A DNA stretch of 24,434 bases, from IMG/VR virus record IMGVR_UViG_3300010149_006292, positions 1-24,434 of that record; one strand, written 5' to 3'. This DNA is from a virus. This document shows, piece by piece, positions 11,832 to 20,597 of this stretch (its first letter is position 1; each line of letters opens with the position of its first letter). A model generated the notes under the pieces. It worked only from the letters and a program-made list of their open reading frames with translations. It had not been told where the DNA came from and searched no databases. The position numbers were made by a program, and so were the translations under genes.

Positions 11832-14800
11832 ATGCCAGTATTTAACCCTAAAAGAGGATTTATTCTAAGTGGTTCTAATATGAACTTCACTAGAAATGTG
11901 GCGGTAGGGGAAGAATTACTGGAGGCGTTAGTATATCTGGGAACAACGGGAGTCTCAGGGTTGATTCCGCCGGGCGCGATAACTGAAGAGCTTACAGTAG
12001 AAACGAATGATGGGGTTTTAGGATTAGGAAAAATTGATATAGTCTTGGATTCGCTAAGTCAAGTAGTGGCAAGTGGGATGACTTCAGGTTTCGTCAGTGG
12101 AAAAGCGGGAGACATTCTGCAACTAAGTGGAGAAAATTTTTACCAAATAACAGATGTAAATTTCGGCAGCGGAGAAGGTCGGTCGGGAACGTTTAATGTA
12201 ATTTCAGAAAATGTAATTGAAACTATAGTGCCTTCTGGAGCTACCTATGATGAGATTACAGTTTTTTCATCTTTAAGAACCGGGCTTAATGGGAATCAAT
12301 CTTTTGCCAGTGGGAAGACTTATAATAAATTTTTACCTATACCTACAGTCACTGGTTTAAACTCGGGGCAAATTATAGCTGGAGAAGAATTGATAATTGA
12401 AGGGATGGGAATGTCGGGGGTCACAGGGATAGAGGTAAATGATATTATTTTTACTTCTTTTACTTCATTGGGATCAACGGGAGTAAAGGCTACGGTCCCT
12501 ACAGGAAACGTTAGGGGGGTTCCTAAGCTTCTTCTTCAAAGTGGGGTTAGCGTAGATGCGGAAAGTAATCTTCTTTTTAAACCGTATGCTGAAATAGTCG
12601 GTATTACGCCGGGAATAAACTTAGGAGAAGTAGCTACTATAAGTGGCACTAATTTTAGCTCAGGGATCTTTTATACAGGAGAGGGAGATGGAACTGGATG
12701 TTTAGTTTCGGTAGGTGCCGAAACCGGTAATTTTAAATTAATAACTGACGCGGGAGGATATAATAGGCTGCAAGGGCATATACCTACGGGATTAGACATA
12801 ACTTTATCTGGCGGAAATATAGCTACTGGCCCCACGATATTAACAAGCCTTGTGGGTTTATTTTCTAATGGCTATCCTGAGGCTTACTCTTCTTCTGTTA
12901 GTTTTAGGCCCGGTATTCCTTCTCCTGAAATAACCGGAGTAGCTCCAATTTCAGGGGTAGGGCAGCAATCTGTTACATTAGAAGGGGACAATTTATATGG
13001 GATAACAGGGGTTAATTTTAGGGGGGGTAACGTTGGAGTTGGCACTGAGTTCCAGACTCAAAACATCATTGTAAATAAACCCGGTAAAAGTATTACAACG
13101 ATAGTTCCGGACACTTCTAATTTTAATGTAGCAGGGGGATTTTTAGACATAGATGTTTCAGGGTATTACGGCACAGGAAGTATAACTAATGGATTTTTTG
13201 TATATGGAACTCCTTCTATATCTAAAGTTATTCCAGATACTGATGTCGAGCCGGGTTCAACAGGAACTATATATGGAGCGAGAATGTATTCGGGCTCTAT
13301 AATAAGGCTTTATAATACCAATGTAGCACCTGCGAACTTTAGAGGCAATGTAGAAGTTAGCGGTTATTCTGCAGGCCATGACGAAATAATATTTAATTAT
13401 CCTAATAATTTTCAAACAGGAAACAATTATAGGTTAAGGGTGACTAACGAAAGAGGAAGCAGCTCGCTAGAAGCAATAACTACTTTTTTTGGGCCGACTT
13501 TAAGTGGAGTATCTATAGTAAGTGGGGAATATGGAGATCCTGTTGTGGTATCGGGGTATTTTTCAGGCATTAGACCTAGTGGTTTAAAGATAGGAGAAAA
13601 GGTGGTCCCTTCCTTCACTCAAGTCTCTCACACTGGAATCAGTTTTAATATACCTAAAAGAACTGCAAGTGATATAATCACTGTAAATACAAGCGGCGGA
13701 TTTGTTTCCAGCACAGGAATCATAAATATTTCTCCATCAAAGCCAACTATTAGTGGATACTTTTTAGGTCAGGGGGATGCGCCAGATACTTTTGATTCGA
13801 CGCAGGTATTTAAAGAGTCGGATGTGTTAACTGTGACGGGAGATTTTATGAGTCTTGTTACGGGAGTGACTTTTTCTGGGTCTAATACTACTTTCTCAAT
13901 TAACAATTTTGTCTCTCAAGAAGCTTCAAATTTAAAATTTAACGTACCTAAGGGGATAAACACAGGGAGCGGTCAATTTATCTTAAAAGACTTTAAATCA
14001 AGAGAAACAGAAAGCCCTTATCCTATAAACGTTACAAACGTTTCAGGTGCAAATAATTATTTGCTTCCGGGGGAGGTCTTGAATATAAGCGGGGATAACG
14101 TTTCAGGGCTTATTGTGGATTTCTCAAGTATAACTGGAGGATTTTTTACAGGCTTAGATTCAGTGGGTTCTAGTGTTGGTCAGATGGAATTGGTATCAGC
14201 CAAAGTGCCTTCGGGCGTTCGGCCGGGTGACTTGAGGATAAGTGGCAGGGGAAATGGGAGCGCTGGTATTCTTGATGGTTTTTCTCCATTAACTGTTGTT
14301 AGTGGGGTAACTGGATTTGATTCTAATAATAAAATAGAAACAGGCAGCACAGTAACTATATCGGGAATAAATGCTCAGACTAGCTTTATTTCCGGTAATT
14401 TAGCCGTAGGGATAAGCGGGACAGGAAATGGGGACTCACGGAATGGTGTTCATCTTTATTCTACTGATAGTTTTGCGACTGGTTCGGGAATAGGAAGCGA
14501 TCCTAATACGATCTATTCTGAGTTCACCTTTAGGCCAGACAATAGTTTTATAGGAACCGGTCAATTATTCCTCGTCAATTCTTGGGACCCACAGACCAGC
14601 TCTTCTGCTTTTTACGATAGCGAGTCTGAAGACTATTTAGCGAAACAGATCAATGTGTTTCCTAATGAATATATAATTACAGGAACTCGAGTAAATGCAA
14701 CTGGTTACGGGCCTGCTAGGGGCGTGACGGGTTCAAATGTTGAAATTTCTGGAGAAGGTTTTAGGGTTGTCTCGGGGGTATATTTTCAAATACCTAGCGG

Positions 14801-15119
14801 GGAAAACCTAGAAGCTGAATTCACCATAAATTCAAGCAACAAGATAACCGCTCTTGTCCCTACAGAAGGTATAGAGGCTCGAGGGATGACGAACATTCTA
14901 TTGTCTGGTGGGACCAATCAAAACATCGGTGAATTTGAAGTCATACTGGACGCTTCTGTGGTTGAGTTTAATATAGTTGAAGAAAATGATACACCTACGA
15001 GTTCAACACGGGTAGGCAACTTTACTCAAAAAGAGACAGTAGCAGGCGTTGTTTATTTAGTAACTAGGACTCGTTTCCCTGACGGGACAAGTGCTATAGT
15101 GAGTAGCGTTCCTGAATAA
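11832..15119 (+). CDS. Large multi-domain IPT/TIG-like repeat protein, putative tail decoration or adhesin
   Basis: The protein is 1095 aa and built almost entirely of Ig-like IPT/TIG-type repeats of about 75-120 residues. I count about ten from recurring openings (P-x-I-x-G-V, then G-x-x-V-x-I-S-G-x-N-F), a central TGVxF strand and a VPxG loop. Examples are VATISGTNF, VTLEGDNLYGITGVNF, LTVTGDFMSLVTGVTFSG and VEISGEGFRVVSGVYF. There is no signal peptide, so it is more likely a virion component than a secreted host protein. It lies directly after the tube-like genes behind a strong GGAGGGG site. Ig-like domains on phage tubes commonly decorate the surface and bind glycans weakly. Its stop is immediately followed by the stop of the opposing gene. 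Confidence 0.75.
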   Translation: MPVFNPKRGFILSGSNMNFTRNVAVGEELLEALVYLGTTGVSGLIPPGAITEELTVETNDGVLGLGKIDIVLDSLSQVVASGMTSGFVSGKAGDILQLSGENFYQITDVNFGSGEGRSGTFNVISENVIETIVPSGATYDEITVFSSLRTGLNGNQSFASGKTYNKFLPIPTVTGLNSGQIIAGEELIIEGMGMSGVTGIEVNDIIFTSFTSLGSTGVKATVPTGNVRGVPKLLLQSGVSVDAESNLLFKPYAEIVGITPGINLGEVATISGTNFSSGIFYTGEGDGTGCLVSVGAETGNFKLITDAGGYNRLQGHIPTGLDITLSGGNIATGPTILTSLVGLFSNGYPEAYSSSVSFRPGIPSPEITGVAPISGVGQQSVTLEGDNLYGITGVNFRGGNVGVGTEFQTQNIIVNKPGKSITTIVPDTSNFNVAGGFLDIDVSGYYGTGSITNGFFVYGTPSISKVIPDTDVEPGSTGTIYGARMYSGSIIRLYNTNVAPANFRGNVEVSGYSAGHDEIIFNYPNNFQTGNNYRLRVTNERGSSSLEAITTFFGPTLSGVSIVSGEYGDPVVVSGYFSGIRPSGLKIGEKVVPSFTQVSHTGISFNIPKRTASDIITVNTSGGFVSSTGIINISPSKPTISGYFLGQGDAPDTFDSTQVFKESDVLTVTGDFMSLVTGVTFSGSNTTFSINNFVSQEASNLKFNVPKGINTGSGQFILKDFKSRETESPYPINVTNVSGANNYLLPGEVLNISGDNVSGLIVDFSSITGGFFTGLDSVGSSVGQMELVSAKVPSGVRPGDLRISGRGNGSAGILDGFSPLTVVSGVTGFDSNNKIETGSTVTISGINAQTSFISGNLAVGISGTGNGDSRNGVHLYSTDSFATGSGIGSDPNTIYSEFTFRPDNSFIGTGQLFLVNSWDPQTSSSAFYDSESEDYLAKQINVFPNEYIITGTRVNATGYGPARGVTGSNVEISGEGFRVVSGVYFQIPSGENLEAEFTINSSNKITALVPTEGIEARGMTNILLSGGTNQNIGEFEVILDASVVEFNIVEENDTPTSSTRVGNFTQKETVAGVVYLVTRTRFPDGTSAIVSSVPE

Positions 15120-15338
15120 TTAAAGGTCGGCTTCCCCTATGTCTATAAAATAAAGAAGCCTATAAATTTTATTCGCTCCTTCTGATCCTTCATGATTAAA
15201 GACATCAAGAGGGGTATCCATGTTTAAATCGGGATTAGGTTTATTTAACCAATCCCCAACGTAATCTTCTTTCATTACCGCGCAACATTCGTTTACCAAG
15301 TTAACGAATGCGATTAATTTACTTTTTGGTACTATCAT
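15120..15338 (-). CDS. Orphan MbcA/ParS/Xre toxin-binding-like domain protein (DUF2384-like)
   Basis: This 72-aa protein has the hallmark of the C-terminal domain of ParS/MbcA/Xre-type antitoxins that bind RES-family toxins. A tryptophan-leucine pair (W30-L31) is followed by PNPDLN (34-39), TPLDVF (42-47) and a C-terminal amphipathic helix (NKIYRLLYFIDIG). The usual N-terminal helix-turn-helix is absent and no RES-type toxin gene is nearby. It is the last gene of the minus-strand operon. Its ATG lies inside the end of the oxygenase-like gene (20-base overlap) behind an AAGAAGAGAG site. The domain call rests on pattern recognition in a short protein. Confidence 0.6.
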   Translation of the reverse strand: MIVPKSKLIAFVNLVNECCAVMKEDYVGDWLNKPNPDLNMDTPLDVFNHEGSEGANKIYRLLYFIDIGEADL

Positions 15339-15969
15339 TACTCTCTTCTTGAAAAAATTTAACGTTAAAAGCTATAGATATTCTTAGATCGTCAGCGGGA
15401 TTAGGGTCTACGTAATGCATTAACCAAGAAGGGAAAATTATTATTTTACCCTCTGTTACGTCGTAGGTAAAAATACTACTATCATATGGATTTTTGGTAG
15501 CGTACCAGTTAGTCCCTTCTTTATGGGCTGGATTAGGTGAACTGAGTCTATGCTGGGGGCGAGGATCTAAAAAATGTATTTTACCTGAGTTAGGGGGAAA
15601 AGAAACATAATAAACTCCAGAGTAATCATTACCCGGATGAATATGAGGGGGGTTAAAGCTTCCTTTTTTATTTATATTGAGCCAAGGATCTATATTTATC
15701 CATTCCCCGGGTTCCCATTCGTGAGCGTCTTGGATTTTTTTTAATAGCTTTCTTATTTGTATATCAAAAAAAGAGACAATACTTTTATCGCTTTCTATGT
15801 CTAGCTCGTAACCCCCATATGAGTCGAGAGAAGGAGCATTCGAGCCATTTTCTAAATGGGTCTCAGCCTCATTAGATGACTTGATAAAATTTAAAATTTG
15901 AGGCTTAAATTGATTATGATAGGGGAAATCGAACTCCCACAAATCAGTGATAAATAAATCATGCTTCAT
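15319..15969 (-). CDS. 2-oxoglutarate/Fe(II) oxygenase-like protein
   Basis: This 216-aa protein resembles the putative 2OG-Fe(II) oxygenases common in marine phages and bacteria. Candidate metal and co-substrate residues are H109/H111 in NPPHIHPGNDYSGVYYV, D115, H185 in FPSWLMHYVDPN, and R196 in DDLRISIAFN. Together these form the HxD/H...H...R pattern of a double-stranded beta-helix. The substrate is unknown; such enzymes hydroxylate proteins, nucleobases or small molecules. The ATG overlaps the end of the aminotransferase gene by 11 bases, suggesting co-expression and perhaps action on a sugar or lipid made with it. The exact pairing of iron ligands needs a structure model. Confidence 0.75.
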   Translation of the reverse strand: MKHDLFITDLWEFDFPYHNQFKPQILNFIKSSNEAETHLENGSNAPSLDSYGGYELDIESDKSIVSFFDIQIRKLLKKIQDAHEWEPGEWINIDPWLNINKKGSFNPPHIHPGNDYSGVYYVSFPPNSGKIHFLDPRPQHRLSSPNPAHKEGTNWYATKNPYDSSIFTYDVTEGKIIIFPSWLMHYVDPNPADDLRISIAFNVKFFQEESNDSTKK

Positions 15970-17059
15970 TTTTAATAGCCTCCACTATTTTATTTTGTTC
16001 TTCTTCTTTAAGGAAAGGATGCATAGGGAGACTCAAGACTTCACTAGAGGCCAGTTCTGCGACTGGGAAATCCCCTAGATCATTCGTCTTCCACCAAGGG
16101 AGAGAAGAGAAAACTGGTTGTTGGTGTAAGCATTTGGGGTAATATATTGCCGTAGGTATACCCTTCTTCTGAAGTGTACCCCTTACTTCATCTCTGTTTC
16201 TTATTCTAATTGTATACTGTCCATAAACGTGAGTGTTTCCTTGGGATACAATTGGAGTGGCGCAAGTATCTGCGAGGAGCGTAGAGTATCTTTCCCCAAT
16301 ATTTGCGCGGTCTTTGACTTCTTGAGGGAAGTGAATGAGCTTCTCTAATAGGACTGCGGCTTGGATAGTATCAAAGCGTCCATTCATTCCTACTCGGTCA
16401 TGGTATCCTCGGACAATGCCTCCATGATTTCTTATAGATTTAAATTTTAAGCTTAGTTCTTCATCGTCAGTGAAGATGGCTCCCCCATCTCCGTAACATC
16501 CAAATACCTTGGCCGGAAAAAAACTCGTACTACCAATCAGGCTAGCCCCACAACTTTTCTTGCCATGGCGAGTTGCTCCAAAGCTCTGAGCGGCATCCTC
16601 AATAACGGGTATGTCATACTTATCTGCGATAGAACAAATTTTCTCTAAATCGGGCATCTGACCAAATAGGCTGACAGGGATAATAGCTTTAGTGTTCTTA
16701 TTAATTGCTGCCTCTAAAAGATCAGGATTCATATTGTAGCTTTCAGGCTCAATATCGATGAAGATTGGGGTAGCTCCTACCGCCATGACTACTTCAGCAG
16801 TACTAATCCAAGTAAAAGGAACCGTTATAACCTCATCTCCCGGCCCTATATCTAAGGCTCTTAAAGCGATTTCTAAACTAACAGTGCCGCTGCCTACTGT
16901 AACGCAATGCTTAACTTTAGTGAAGTTGGCTAGTTTTTCTTCCAGATCTTCTATTTCAGGCCCCATTACATATTTTCCGTGATCTAATACTGAATGAATA
17001 CGTTTATCAATGGCGTTTTTGTATTTTTTGTATTGAGATTTTAAATCAATAAATTCCAT
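15959..17059 (-). CDS. DegT/DnrJ/EryC1/StrS-family sugar aminotransferase
   Basis: This 366-aa PLP-dependent aminotransferase is of the usual family length. It shows the N-terminal QY...I...VLDHGKYVMGPE segment, a phosphate-binding GSGT (56-59), EDAAQSFGA with D155 contacting the PLP ring nitrogen, and the Schiff-base lysine K184 in SFFPAKVFGCYGDGGA. Family members transfer an amino group from glutamate to a keto-sugar nucleotide, making aminosugars for O-antigen, capsule or glycoprotein glycans. In a phage it may help modify virion glycans or the host surface. All core catalytic residues are present. The exact sugar substrate cannot be given. The gene lies 12 bases after the GspC-like gene in the same operon. 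Confidence 0.92.
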   Translation of the reverse strand: MEFIDLKSQYKKYKNAIDKRIHSVLDHGKYVMGPEIEDLEEKLANFTKVKHCVTVGSGTVSLEIALRALDIGPGDEVITVPFTWISTAEVVMAVGATPIFIDIEPESYNMNPDLLEAAINKNTKAIIPVSLFGQMPDLEKICSIADKYDIPVIEDAAQSFGATRHGKKSCGASLIGSTSFFPAKVFGCYGDGGAIFTDDEELSLKFKSIRNHGGIVRGYHDRVGMNGRFDTIQAAVLLEKLIHFPQEVKDRANIGERYSTLLADTCATPIVSQGNTHVYGQYTIRIRNRDEVRGTLQKKGIPTAIYYPKCLHQQPVFSSLPWWKTNDLGDFPVAELASSEVLSLPMHPFLKEEEQNKIVEAIKNEA

Positions 17060-17071
17060 TATGCTTTATAT

Positions 17072-17581
17072 TTATTTGCTTTTGTCTCTCTCTTTTCTAT
17101 ATTTTTCTATCGCTTTAGCGATATTCTCTCGGCGCTCTTCTTCTTTATTTTTATTTTTATCATCTTTTTTATCCTTTTTTATCACAGTGGGGCGATTAAA
17201 AATGGGGGCTGGGCCAATTATATTAGGTATTTTATTAATCTCAAAAGAGAGAGTTTCGACGACGCCGTTATTATTTATTTTTACGAGGTTTTTCTTAACA
17301 CTTAAAAGCTCTATGCCGCTATCACTCCTTTTTTTATTACTAAGGGTAAGGAACCTTTTAGGAATATCTTTAGAATAAAGGAAGACGTTAGTGAGATTCT
17401 TATACTTCATAATTCCCGTGAGATTTAATTTAATAGGAGGAGCATTAGTCTTTACTACGAGCGGAGCAGGAGGTAAAAAATCTTTACCTAGAGAGAAGGC
17501 GTTACGGGTGGTAATGCCTGTATACTGATTATCAGCAGCAGAGGCCATCGTTAGAGAAAGTAAAAAGATGAGTTTTTTCAT
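17072..17581 (-). CDS. Secreted GspC/PilP homology-region-like protein
   Basis: This 169-aa protein has a clear signal peptide (MKKLIFLLSLTMASA, cleavage near residue 15). Residues about 25-114 look like the HR beta domain of type II secretion GspC and pilus PilP proteins: a TRNAFSL box, a proline linker (PPAP, APP), a KLNLTGIM strand, then LLSVKKNLVKINNNGVVETLSF. The HR domain normally links the inner-membrane assembly platform to the secretin. The C-terminus (134-169) is a highly charged lysine/glutamate helix. There is no membrane anchor apart from the signal peptide, and the usual PDZ part of GspC is missing. It starts one base after the pilin-like gene, so the two probably act together. 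Moderate confidence, based on pattern only. Confidence 0.55.
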   Translation of the reverse strand: MKKLIFLLSLTMASAADNQYTGITTRNAFSLGKDFLPPAPLVVKTNAPPIKLNLTGIMKYKNLTNVFLYSKDIPKRFLTLSNKKRSDSGIELLSVKKNLVKINNNGVVETLSFEINKIPNIIGPAPIFNRPTVIKKDKKDDKNKNKEEERRENIAKAIEKYRKERDKSK

Positions 17582-17582
17582 T

Positions 17583-17867
17583 TTATTCGGCGTAGTAGTA
17601 AGGGATTCCAGCTGTTGTGTGGCAATTATAGCACTGATTATAGGTTTCTACCAACAGCTTTATGTCTTCAGGGCTTTTAGCTGAGTAAGTGCTAAAATCG
17701 TATTCGGGCATATAGTGGAAAGTTTCTACTTGTTTTCTATATGTCTTACACGCTGCAATTCGTCCTGACCTCTTTGCATTCATATATGTTTGAAGAGAGA
17801 AAGATGCAATCAGCATGATAATAGTTGTAACCAGAAGAAGTTCTAATATTGTAAAGCTCTCTTTCAT
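17583..17867 (-). CDS. Type IV pilin / pseudopilin-like protein with a CXXCH motif
   Basis: This 94-aa protein has a textbook class III prepilin start: a short basic leader (MKES), then F5-T-I-L-E9-L-L-L-V and about 20 hydrophobic residues. F5 would be mature residue 1 and E9 the conserved mature glutamate 5. The residue before the cleavage site is serine instead of the usual glycine. The small C-terminal domain (about 30-94) holds C40 and C79-Y-N-C82-H83, a perfect CXXCH that could bind haem c or form a disulfide. It lies between an unknown phage gene and the GspC-like gene. Its role in a phage is unknown; hijacking or blocking a host pilus or secretion system is one possibility. Confidence 0.72.
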   Translation of the reverse strand: MKESFTILELLLVTTIIMLIASFSLQTYMNAKRSGRIAACKTYRKQVETFHYMPEYDFSTYSAKSPEDIKLLVETYNQCYNCHTTAGIPYYYAE

Positions 17868-17873
17868 TCATGT

Positions 17874-18389
17874 TTACGAATGTTTCCAGAGGCTTAATTT
17901 TTCTTTTTTTGAGACGGTTGATGGGGTCGACGCAGGTGTTAGCGTTTTCGCTGAGGCCCAATAATGGAGTCGTGTCAGAAACGAAAGAAACCTACGGAAA
18001 AATTTATATTTAAAAGTTCTTCTAAAGGCTATTTCTTGAGGGTTTTGTTCTTTGTGAGGCTGATGAGCTTCAAAAGTTATAAGCTCTTTTTTATCTACTA
18101 ACCCTTTATTAAAAGTAAAACTGAAAACTACCCAATAAGATTTATCGCTTTCTTCCTTAAGTAGATTGTAAAAGGTTATTTTCCCTGAATAACAAACTTT
18201 TACCCATCGTTCTTTTGGGTTTACTTTCTCAGGGTGATTTAAAAAAAGTTTTTGTTTATATATTTTATAATTGAAGAGAGAGTTTTCTAGGCTCTTCGTT
18301 TGGAAGTCAGTTCTATCGACTAGTTTCTCCTGCTTTTTGGTTAACAGGCTTCTTAAGTAAGATTTAGGTACAGTTATATTGTCAAACAT
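17874..18389 (-). CDS. Phage protein of unknown function (MFDN... family)
   Basis: This is a basic protein of 171 aa from the ATG at 18389. The start is chosen because MFDNI, followed by a D-FQTKSLEN-L--Y-I segment, matches a widespread group of uncharacterised phage proteins that begin MFD and carry an FQTK/YQTK-D/SL motif. An earlier ATG at 18428 would add 13 residues with no family support. The chosen start overlaps the pyrophosphatase stop as ATGTTTGA. The middle is predicted beta (KVCYSGKITFYNL, YWVVFSFTFN). The end is rich in aromatic and basic residues (FRRFLSFLTRLHYWASAK), possibly an amphipathic helix. No function is known to me. Confidence 0.7.
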   Translation of the reverse strand: MFDNITVPKSYLRSLLTKKQEKLVDRTDFQTKSLENSLFNYKIYKQKLFLNHPEKVNPKERWVKVCYSGKITFYNLLKEESDKSYWVVFSFTFNKGLVDKKELITFEAHQPHKEQNPQEIAFRRTFKYKFFRRFLSFLTRLHYWASAKTLTPASTPSTVSKKEKLSLWKHS

Positions 18390-18927
18390 TGCTATTTTTT
18401 TGTTGTTGATTCCATCTATCGTGAGCATCCAAAACTACCGTGGAGGCTTTTTTTCCGTTTTTCCATTCACCGACTTTAACAGTGCTTGATTTATCTATTT
18501 TGTATATACGAAAAAATTGTTTAAATATTTTAAGATGCTCCGCTTCGATAGAGCTCAGTCTAGGGTAACGGGATTTTGGGGTCCAGTGAGGAACGGCTAT
18601 AACCTTGTAGTCTATTTCCTCATTATCTACAAAGTCTAAAACTCCTAGAGCGCGACATTTCACCAAGCTCCCTCTGTCGATAGGGTCGTGATTAAAAATT
18701 AATACATCTAAAGGGTCATTATCAAGTGCGAAAGTTTGTGTTATGAATCCGTAATTAATAGGGTATTGGAGCGAGGAAACAAGACACCGATCGAGTTCAA
18801 ATATATTATATTTTTCGTTATATTCGTATTTAGTATTAGTTCCTTTAGGTATCTCTACAATGCAGCTGATATGGCCAAAGCCATCCTGAGTAATAGGGAT
18901 ATCATTTACTAAATTGGTTGGAGTCAT
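18382..18927 (-). CDS. ppa: Class I (soluble) inorganic pyrophosphatase
   Basis: This 181-aa enzyme hydrolyses pyrophosphate to two phosphates in the cytosol. The active-site residues of E. coli PPase can be matched: E25, K33, E35, R47 (ELDR), Y59 (YPINYGF), the metal-binding triad D69/D71/D74 in DNDPLDVL, D101, D106, K108 and Y142-K143. Length and order are normal for the family. It heads the minus-strand operon. Removing PPi would favour DNA synthesis together with the RNR genes, and nucleotide-sugar synthesis together with the downstream aminotransferase. The start codon lies 16 bases from the ATG of the divergent plus-strand gene, so its promoter would overlap that gene. Confidence 0.95.
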   Translation of the reverse strand: MTPTNLVNDIPITQDGFGHISCIVEIPKGTNTKYEYNEKYNIFELDRCLVSSLQYPINYGFITQTFALDNDPLDVLIFNHDPIDRGSLVKCRALGVLDFVDNEEIDYKVIAVPHWTPKSRYPRLSSIEAEHLKIFKQFFRIYKIDKSSTVKVGEWKNGKKASTVVLDAHDRWNQQQKNSNV

Positions 18928-18943
18928 AAGTGTAATATTTTAT

Positions 18944-19264
18944 ATGAACTTAATAGTTTGCGCCCCTTTATCTGAGCCGCCAACAGAATCTTTGCCATTT
19001 AGGTATGTTTTATCTTGCGCCCATATGGACTGCGATATGGACGTTCTTTTAGAGTGCGAGCGTGGAACAGAAGATTTATATTGGAAGTTTTTAAACCAGC
19101 GGGGCATGTTTGATTTTATTTCTGATATAATTTGTCCTCTTCAAGAAAGGGGCTTAAGTATTGATACTCAAGTGCGGAACCAAAGGGCTACTATAATTAC
19201 TAATTATATTAGGTTAGAAAACCAAATTGACATAATAGAGTCCATAAAGAAGCGAATGATTTAA
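18944..19264 (+). CDS. Unrecognised 106-aa protein, lone plus-strand gene
   Basis: This frame fills the only stretch (18928-19260) where no minus-strand frame is open, and its composition looks protein-like. It has a possible SAHM-x-CDMDVLLECE core, an FLNQRGMFDFISDIICPLQERGL segment and a charged helical C-terminus (QIDIIESIKKR). I prefer the ATG at 18944 to the TTG at 18914 because the TTG would run into the pyrophosphatase start. There is no good Shine-Dalgarno sequence in front of either. Its stop overlaps the stop of the opposing coiled-coil gene (19261-19264). I recognise no family. Confidence 0.55.
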   Translation: MNLIVCAPLSEPPTESLPFRYVLSCAHMDCDMDVLLECERGTEDLYWKFLNQRGMFDFISDIICPLQERGLSIDTQVRNQRATIITNYIRLENQIDIIESIKKRMI

Positions 19265-19497
19265 ACCGATTCAACTTCTCCCATGTTATCATGCTTGAGA
19301 ACCTTAGCCTCTAAAACCTTGACTCTCTCACTAGCTTCCACAGCTTTTGAAGCAGCGTCTTGGGCCATTTGGTCAATTTCCTGAGCTTCGTGACGGGCCT
19401 CTTCAGAGGCTTTCCTTGCATCTTCAGCTGCGTCTTGGGTAGCTGCGGCACAACGACGGGCCGAATCGAGCATTAATCTTAAGTAACCACTTGCCAT
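19261..19497 (-). CDS. Small alanine-rich coiled-coil protein
   Basis: This 78-aa protein is almost all alanine, glutamate, aspartate and arginine in heptad-like order (AAEDARKASEEARHEAQEID, then ASKAVEASERVKVLEAKVL). It is probably one long helix or a coiled coil. There is no signal peptide or membrane segment. It follows the DUF2589-like gene by 12 bases in the same direction, so it may be part of that small cassette. Function unknown. Confidence 0.7.
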   Translation of the reverse strand: MASGYLRLMLDSARRCAAATQDAAEDARKASEEARHEAQEIDQMAQDAASKAVEASERVKVLEAKVLKHDNMGEVESV

Positions 19498-19509
19498 ACT
19501 TTAATTATA

Positions 19510-19986
19510 TTAAGTAGGGATAGTTTTTACAATTTTATCATTAATTCGAGCTATACCTTCAGGGGTATCACCATTTTTAATAGTGAGCTTTACTTTAGCT
19601 AATGTGTTTTTAGGGTCTTTTCTCCCTATCATAGCAATCATTCGTCTCTTTTGGTGGTTATCGGAGTTCTCAAATTGCCCTAAATCCACCTCAAATTCCA
19701 TCTCTAAGTTCTCTATCTTAAGATGGTTATGGCCCGCTAAAGTCATAATAGGGATTTCGACTTCTTGATCTCCTTCAGCAGTAGGGAGAATAATTTTTTT
19801 AGTGACGGGTCTGCCGTGATCATCAAAATATGTCCCTATAACCCGCTTTAAATGCTCAGTTTCCACATAACGTTGAGCATAAACAACAGAGTTATAGAGA
19901 CACTGGATCAAGTGATCAAACGTTTTTAACGCCGGAGCACCTCGGAATGATCCAGATTTTGAATAAGGTAATTTGTCTTCAGACAT
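19510..19986 (-). CDS. DUF2589-like protein, diverged partner
   Basis: This 158-aa protein starts where the DUF2589 gene stops (TAATG, one-base overlap). It shares the pattern of that family at low similarity: IPIMTLAGHNHLKIENLEMEFEVDL resembles VPLLSIIQTPNLGVKKATVDFDMEV in the neighbour. A C-terminal KVKLTIKNGDTPEGIARINDKI segment resembles HVEARDDGAPEGLMKVLDIL. The two are probably ancient paralogues that act as a pair. The central strands of the neighbour are shorter here. No function is known for the family. Confidence 0.65.
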   Translation of the reverse strand: MSEDKLPYSKSGSFRGAPALKTFDHLIQCLYNSVVYAQRYVETEHLKRVIGTYFDDHGRPVTKKIILPTAEGDQEVEIPIMTLAGHNHLKIENLEMEFEVDLGQFENSDNHQKRRMIAMIGRKDPKNTLAKVKLTIKNGDTPEGIARINDKIVKTIPT

Positions 19987-20597
19987 TACTTATTAGGCGG
20001 AGCTGGAGGAGTATTGCCTCCACCCACAGGAACAGGTTGAATAGCTGCTCCAAGAATGTCAAGAACTTTCATTAGTCCTTCGGGAGCTCCGTCATCACGG
20101 GCTTCTACATGGACTGTATATTTGGCTGAGTTATCTGTCTTACGAATATTTTCACTTTTAGTAGATACTGAAGCTGTAAGGTCTACTTTCACAGGGGACC
20201 ACCAGTTGTCATATTTAACGCTAAGATCAGTTTTAGTATTAACGGAGCTCGTATCCTGAGTGCTAGATTTGACTTCCATATCAAAGTCAACAGTAGCTTT
20301 TTTGACTCCTAAGTTAGGGGTTTGAATAATGGAAAGAAGAGGAACCTTAAGTTTACGGTTTTCAATTTTTGTAGTGATAGCTCCTTTATCATCTTTGGAT
20401 TCGATAGGAGCATCATAATCAAATTCCACCGTACGTGCGCTAAGGTTGCCGTTGCCATCGTCTTGCAGCCCGATGTCTTTGATAAAATTTTCCGTTGTGT
20501 GAGCTAACTGCCCTTGAGCTTTTGCTGCTCCAAGTAACGGTTCCGCGATGAGTGTCCCAATTGGGAGGCCTTTGAATTGATCTGCTATGCTAGCCAT
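19986..20597 (-). CDS. DUF2589 family protein
   Basis: This 203-aa protein matches DUF2589 along its length: the MASIADQFKGLPIGTLI start, a helix containing AAKAQGQLAHTTENFIKDIG, VPLLSIIQTPNLGV, VDFDMEVKSS, the DNSAKYTVHVEA strand and APEGLMKVLDILGAAI near the end. A proline-rich tail (GGGNTPPAPPNK) follows. The family has no known function. There is no signal peptide, so it is cytosolic. Instead of a clear ribosome binding site, the bases just upstream form a 17-base palindrome (20600-20616). Confidence 0.85.
   Translation of the reverse strand: MASIADQFKGLPIGTLIAEPLLGAAKAQGQLAHTTENFIKDIGLQDDGNGNLSARTVEFDYDAPIESKDDKGAITTKIENRKLKVPLLSIIQTPNLGVKKATVDFDMEVKSSTQDTSSVNTKTDLSVKYDNWWSPVKVDLTASVSTKSENIRKTDNSAKYTVHVEARDDGAPEGLMKVLDILGAAIQPVPVGGGNTPPAPPNK

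Follow-up and report, generated by a model that had tools for sequence, protein, structure and literature searches.

The window analysed here, a stretch of 24,434 nucleotides corresponding to positions 1 to 24,434 of the IMG/VR virus record IMGVR_UViG_3300010149_006292, carries two neighbouring minus-strand genes, one encoding a short pilin-like protein (mini-pilin) and the other an exported protein with a predicted HR-like domain (HR protein) (Table 1). A single base (17582) separates the two open reading frames, and the arrangement described in an earlier note on this DNA, in which a pilin gene is followed after one base by the gene of a secreted protein, is indeed present. The pair is embedded in a compact minus-strand cluster whose order is ribonucleotide reductase and DUF2589 genes, pyrophosphatase, the 'GMFD' gene, mini-pilin, HR protein, DegT aminotransferase and 2OG-Fe(II) oxygenase, and which adjoins lambda-like tail genes. 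The position of the 'GMFD' gene upstream of the pair is retained in many relatives. Promoter and terminator scans yielded signals no better than chance level.

Table 1. Positions of the pilin-HR pair, its internal features and the adjacent cluster genes in the window
Feature	Position	Strand	Basis
Mini-pilin gene, 94 aa, ATG start; class III-like signal peptide followed by one long hydrophobic helix	17583..17867	-	ORF, 15-member alignment, profiles, AlphaFold
Glu9 codon (mature Glu5), pilin assembly residue	17841..17843	-	E in 32/32 distinct mini-pilins
Cys40 codon, in the long helix	17748..17750	-	C in 32/32 distinct mini-pilins
CxxCH motif (C-Y-N-C-H, residues 79-83), putative haem-c-attachment-like or metal/disulfide site	17619..17633	-	32/32 distinct mini-pilins
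HR-domain protein gene, 169 aa, predicted to be exported	17072..17581	-	ORF, alignment, AlphaFold model
Putative signal peptide of the HR protein, ~residues 1-16, MKK...ASA	17534..17581	-	Read from sequence
R-N-A-F motif, residues 26-29, ahead of the proline-rich linker	17495..17506	-	Invariant in 16 aligned HR proteins
HR-like domain, residues 53-111, six consecutive beta strands (predicted)	17249..17425	-	AlphaFold and Foldseek
'GMFD...FQTKSL' gene, 184 aa, conserved, upstream of the mini-pilin	17874..18428	-	ORF and relatives
Pyrophosphatase gene	18382-18927	-	Same-strand cluster member
DegT aminotransferase gene	15959-17059	-	Cluster member
2OG-Fe(II) oxygenase gene	15319-15969	-	Cluster member

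The HR protein comprises a signal peptide, an R-x-x-F motif, a proline-rich linker, the HR domain and a charged tail. This tail is short in the window protein, and those of relatives are longer by about 60 residues. Beyond the signal peptide no transmembrane anchor follows, and the protein contains neither a PDZ nor a coiled-coil domain; as it has no cysteine at all, it also lacks a lipobox cysteine. The elements RNAF-L, L-LTG and NNG are invariant across 16 aligned homologues, and dN/dS values of ~0.10-0.21 among relatives indicate purifying selection on the gene. An AlphaFold model built on the homologue alignment reaches a pLDDT of ~90 over residues 51-110, with strands predicted at residues 53-60, 63-69, 77-81, 90-96, 99-104 and 107-111; the published GspC-HR fold likewise consists of six consecutive strands, arranged into two three-stranded sheets (PMC3169554). 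A Foldseek search of the model against 350,542 PDB chains returned GspC-HR (3oss, probability 1.00), LspC (0.96) and PulC-HR (0.84) at ranks 1 to 3, while the PilP structures 2ivw and 2y4y appeared at ranks 13 and 20. Rank 4 (probability 0.89) went to 3jc8, a model of the type IVa pilus, through its chain Pa, which is interpreted as PilP. With 0.029 for the best match, the E-values were modest, yet four HR-domain proteins topping a list of 350,542 chains are not explained by chance. Because the model has six strands and its first matches are GspC and PilP proteins, the HR assignment of the window protein holds at the level of predicted fold, and the structural resemblance to GspC-HR and PilP that the earlier note had anticipated is borne out.

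Sequence comparison adds a weak yet concordant signal that points to GspC. NCBIfam GspC models match the HR proteins with E-values of 0.011 for the window copy and of 0.0014, 0.0049 and 0.012 (GspC_delta) for those of contigs L023, L157 and L072, respectively, all far under cut-off (e.g. 15.4 bits against 101.6 for TIGR01713). The HR profile gives a co-linear, weak match to the GspC profile of E. coli K-12 (P 0.02 and 0.013) and no match to the HofP profile of the same strain. Pfam T2SSC has no match in the window protein, searches of Pfam and PHROG returned no match of note, and the HR alignments, used as profiles against the sequences of solved structures, retrieved no HR protein. Since the anchor, PDZ, lipobox and neighbourhood tests all fail, the protein is neither GspC nor PilP proper.

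The first protein of the pair is pilin-like by its N-terminus. At the level of sequence, this signature is weak in the window protein alone and clear in the family: the Pfam N_methyl model remains under its cut-off for the window copy (E 0.18), whose best NCBIfam match is GspH (E 6e-4), and it matches 14 of the 15 family members first collected (best E 4e-6), all of which are matched by pseudopilin models (GspH/GspG). Among PDB sequences, PilA and geopilin match the N-terminal part. The leader of the window copy (MKES|F) has Ser at position -1, where 32 distinct mini-pilins, read from the alignment, have Gly (23), Ser (7) or Ala (2); this Ser may lower processing. In the AlphaFold model (mean pLDDT 77.5, falling below 50 at the C-terminus), helices at residues 7-52 and 66-84 form a helical hairpin and no C-terminal beta-sheet head domain is predicted, a domain that is also absent from short pilins such as geopilin. 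Cys40 and the CxxCH motif, whose joint invariance is a feature absent from the earlier note, are kept in mini-pilins down to ~30% identity, and by counting, Cys40 lies opposite residues 78-83 in the predicted hairpin. The gene is under purifying selection among relatives (dN/dS ~0.06-0.09). A Foldseek search with the mini-pilin model yielded no useful information, as the helical hairpin is too generic a fold, and a role in the virion was set aside, as neither position nor sequence supports it.

Distribution among relatives and probable host group

Altogether, 85 IMG/VR viral contigs with any of three families were tabulated; all counts given here refer to contigs, some of them near-identical, and not to independent events. 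The HR gene is present on 38 tabulated contigs, and was later also found on the 200-kb contig G030 and on one further viral contig. The mini-pilin gene accompanies it on 25 of the 38, so that the co-occurrence in related phages that the earlier note had proposed to look for exists, and in 21 of these 25 contigs the two genes are neighbours or overlap, with the same orientation. As purifying selection acts on both genes in the relatives in which they recur, the pair is more than a chance arrangement. It is not obligate, since some phage pilin is encoded on 28 of the 38 HR contigs and the HR gene stands without one on the remaining 10, where a search of the whole records found no mini-pilin. Together with contig G013, which has a mini-pilin gene without an HR gene, these contigs imply that the two products need not act together. 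Relatives also carry larger versions of the cassette, to which the earlier note did not refer, with full-length pilins of 315-330 amino acids whose sequences remain 64-88% identical over tens of viral contigs: L137 encodes two full-length pilins, two mini-pilins and an HR protein, and L018 and L023 each encode one of every kind.

Genes for the corresponding machinery were searched for in the phage contigs. Secretin (PF00263), prepilin peptidase (PF01478) and T2SSF (PF00482) were detected in none of 15 contigs (>1.3 Mb) and the motor ATPase T2SSE (PF00437) exceeded its cut-off in none of eight, which agrees with the absence of machinery reported in the earlier note; positive controls were recovered, and the contigs may be incomplete. 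Apparent T2SSE matches in three contigs proved to be P-loop fragments below cut-off, and the one in contig G005 was read as PhoH-like.

The pilin and HR families span two unrelated phage types with few other genes in common. The window and G005 are siphophage-like, with tape measure and lambda-J-like proteins, whereas a contractile-tail sheath (E 9e-63) marks G013, to which G030 is related, with matches to 90 of the 138 G013 ORFs; seven of the 25 window ORFs match G013, and seven match G030. Such a spread suggests that phages infecting one host group have exchanged these genes. Neither a tblastn comparison of the window proteins with 50,697 phage records nor a search of plasmids for relatives of these genes gave a match.

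An HR scan and a pattern scan for the large pilin among GTDB contigs both returned no relatives, and the host can therefore not be fixed by homology. Indirect signs favour a PVC-type (Planctomycetes- or Verrucomicrobia-type) host for these marine phages, because the large pilins of relatives are H-X9-DG/DUF1559-like and two relatives carry DUF1552 genes. The pilins match the H-X9-DG-CTERM and DUF1559 models weakly, under both cut-offs, and DUF1559 has been described as apparently restricted to Planctomycetes (PMC10632474). The DUF1552 (PF07586) genes lie at L178 8970-10211 (G030) and G012 45918-46814, with E-values of 1e-79 and 1e-83; the family is annotated in Rhodopirellula (PMC2754498), and none was found in 14 control genomes. 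The Verrucomicrobiota affinity suggested in the earlier note is thereby supported, indirectly, as far as a PVC-like host is concerned, Verrucomicrobiota themselves being compatible with these signs rather than demonstrated by them.

Comparison with known systems

With the HR domains of GspC (ETEC 3OSS, PulC, LspC), the phage protein shares six consecutive strands, the best fold matches and weak sequence matches, but it differs from GspC in having neither membrane anchor nor PDZ domain, in its predicted free periplasmic state, in its proline-rich linker and charged tail, in scoring far under the GspC cut-off and in the lack of a nearby secretin gene. PilP and HofP resemble it in their succession of signal peptide, R-x-x-F, proline-rich stretch and HR domain, with RDPF in E. 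coli K-12 HofP at the same place as the phage RNAF and with 2ivw and 2y4y among the fold matches. In contrast to PilP, the phage protein has no lipobox cysteine and no HofP profile match, and no pilus machinery genes were found in the phages searched.

Type IV pilins and pseudopilins (GspG/GspH, PilA, Geobacter PilA-N) have the N-terminal methylation-type helix with Glu5 in common with the mini-pilin, which departs from them in its length of only 94 amino acids, its predicted helical hairpin without a beta domain, the C...CxxCH pattern of all members and, in the window copy, Ser at position -1. The large pilins of relatives share the N-terminal motif and a C-x-N-x-x-R/K-Q-like motif with PVC-type H-X9-DG/DUF1559 pilins. 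Phage-borne pilins are already a recognised category, namely phrog_3433 ('pilin', moron/host takeover), which matches the N-terminus of the relatives' pilins, mainly the N-terminal helix, and does not match the window mini-pilin; we know of no HR partner for this family. In a partial literature search, no description of a phage GspC/PilP-type HR protein or of a phage pilin-HR cassette was found. Blockers of type IV pili are known from other phages and bind PilC (PfsE of Pf) or PilB (Aqs1 and Gp05 of D3112); disabling the host pilus is a possible common purpose (PMC8764522, PMC11436027). These blockers act on the platform or the motor, whereas the predicted target here would be the secretin and the pilus fibre, reached through homologues of host parts.

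Candidate roles of the pair

The favoured hypothesis, given somewhat less than an even chance of being correct, is that the pair is a host-takeover module directed against the host's own secretin machine, a type II secretion system (T2SS) or type IV pilus (T4P), which would be blocked or remodelled by competition. The HR protein, exported without the membrane anchor and the other domains of GspC and PilP, would be free in the periplasm and, as we infer, would occupy the secretin N0-domain site that the host GspC or PilP must hold. After insertion into the inner membrane, the mini-pilin would be processed by the host prepilin peptidase and join the host pilus or pseudopilus via Glu5 as a short helical subunit without a beta domain. 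This reading is favoured by the predicted HR-like fold, the pilin signature with its invariant Glu5, the frequent linkage of the two genes, the lack of machinery genes in the contigs searched and the presence of the same genes in siphophage and contractile-tailed lineages. In the simplest outcome, the machine would be blocked or remodelled during infection, and the phage might benefit, for example, by keeping out rival phages or by halting secretion or the uptake of DNA. As regards the direction of the effect, blocking is the most straightforward prediction, because a soluble periplasmic nanobody bound to the GspC-HR site of the secretin blocks type II secretion in vivo in Pseudomonas (PMC5646246). 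Against the takeover reading as a whole, the HR sequence profiles stay under every GspC and PilP cut-off and the Foldseek E-values are modest, and against pure blocking, the conserved full-length pilins look like working subunits, which suits re-programming better.

Re-programming of the host machine would mean that a pseudopilus or pilus specified by the phage is assembled from its pilins and the HR adaptor, with the host motor, platform and secretin, and that during infection the altered machine serves to secrete, attach, take up DNA or mask receptors. The cassettes of L137, L018 and L023 look like subunit complements, their full-length pilins are kept at high identity on many contigs and Glu5 is invariant in mini-pilins; however, the window holds only a mini-pilin and an HR protein, the latter has no membrane anchor for coupling to the inner-membrane platform, and no cargo or filament is known, so that this account is considered possible but rather unlikely. 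The cysteines of the mini-pilin suggest yet another role, in which Cys40 and CxxCH would bind haem c or zinc or form a periplasmic redox disulfide, the pilin helix would act as an anchor and the HR protein would be a neighbour with a separate envelope role. The invariance of these residues, their apposition in the predicted hairpin and the precedent of TfcP, a c-type cytochrome that serves type IVa pilus formation in Myxococcus (PMC8833165), are in line with such a haem or metal protein. Yet the 32-sequence alignment offers no invariant Met or His as second haem ligand, cytochrome profile matches are marginal and the conserved Glu5 argues for pilin assembly beyond mere anchoring, which leaves it improbable that haem or metal binding is the chief function. 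Finally, both genes might be host-derived envelope genes unlinked to any secretion machine (e.g. for envelope maintenance or lysis) that phages of one host group have retained. The varied contexts of the HR gene where it stands alone fit this explanation, but the adjacency of two parts of the same machine type in 21 contigs would be surprising unless they share a target, and a low probability is assigned to it.

If the competition model were true, the inner gate of the secretin would be a phage target and HR decoys would represent a novel means of shutting down or re-purposing type II secretion and type IV pili. A bolder extension, regarded as unlikely, is that PVC phages possess a modular kit of pseudopilins and a secretin adaptor that turns the host T2SS or T4P into a phage-specified apparatus, in which a miniature pilin that binds haem or metal would serve as a novel type of subunit. 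The pair would also offer an entry point to phages whose hosts probably belong to the PVC group, and the C...CxxCH mini-pilin would be a structurally unusual pilin that is worth solving by itself.

Other genes in the window and near the pair in relatives

Several further genes can be highlighted. In the window, positions 19510-20597 (-) and 19261-19497 (-) encode two DUF2589 proteins, matched at E 4e-15 and 5e-33, together with an alanine-rich coil. The contractile-tailed phages share the DUF2589 pair with the window, with identities that reach 63%; as this far exceeds the identity of most shared genes, it may be another host-group-specific module. On the strand opposite to the pilin-HR pair, the window encodes a 1,095-amino-acid glycine-rich repeat protein (11832-15119, +), which looks IPT/TIG-like by eye, has counterparts in the close relatives examined and gave no match in a PHROG search. 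Where the HR gene occurs alone, its contexts include small lipoproteins, a MotA/ExbB-like protein and exported CxxC proteins. One phage contig encodes a MotA/TolQ/ExbB-like protein (L109 4633-5022, E 2.7e-16) about 1 kb from an HR gene, and small exported proteins whose CxxC motif resembles that of metal chaperones (e.g. VCSSCGIGI, VCPSCAIGI) recur near HR or pilin genes (L089 4267-4641, L109 6704-7054 and L121 757-1152). An ankyrin-repeat protein of ~515-530 amino acids is common to both phage types at 53-58% identity, often near pilin genes (L117 8284-9828, G013 68411-69991 and G005 123202-124794). In addition, a serine hydroxymethyltransferase-like gene (L011 5950-7086) lies between the mini-pilin and HR genes of one relative.
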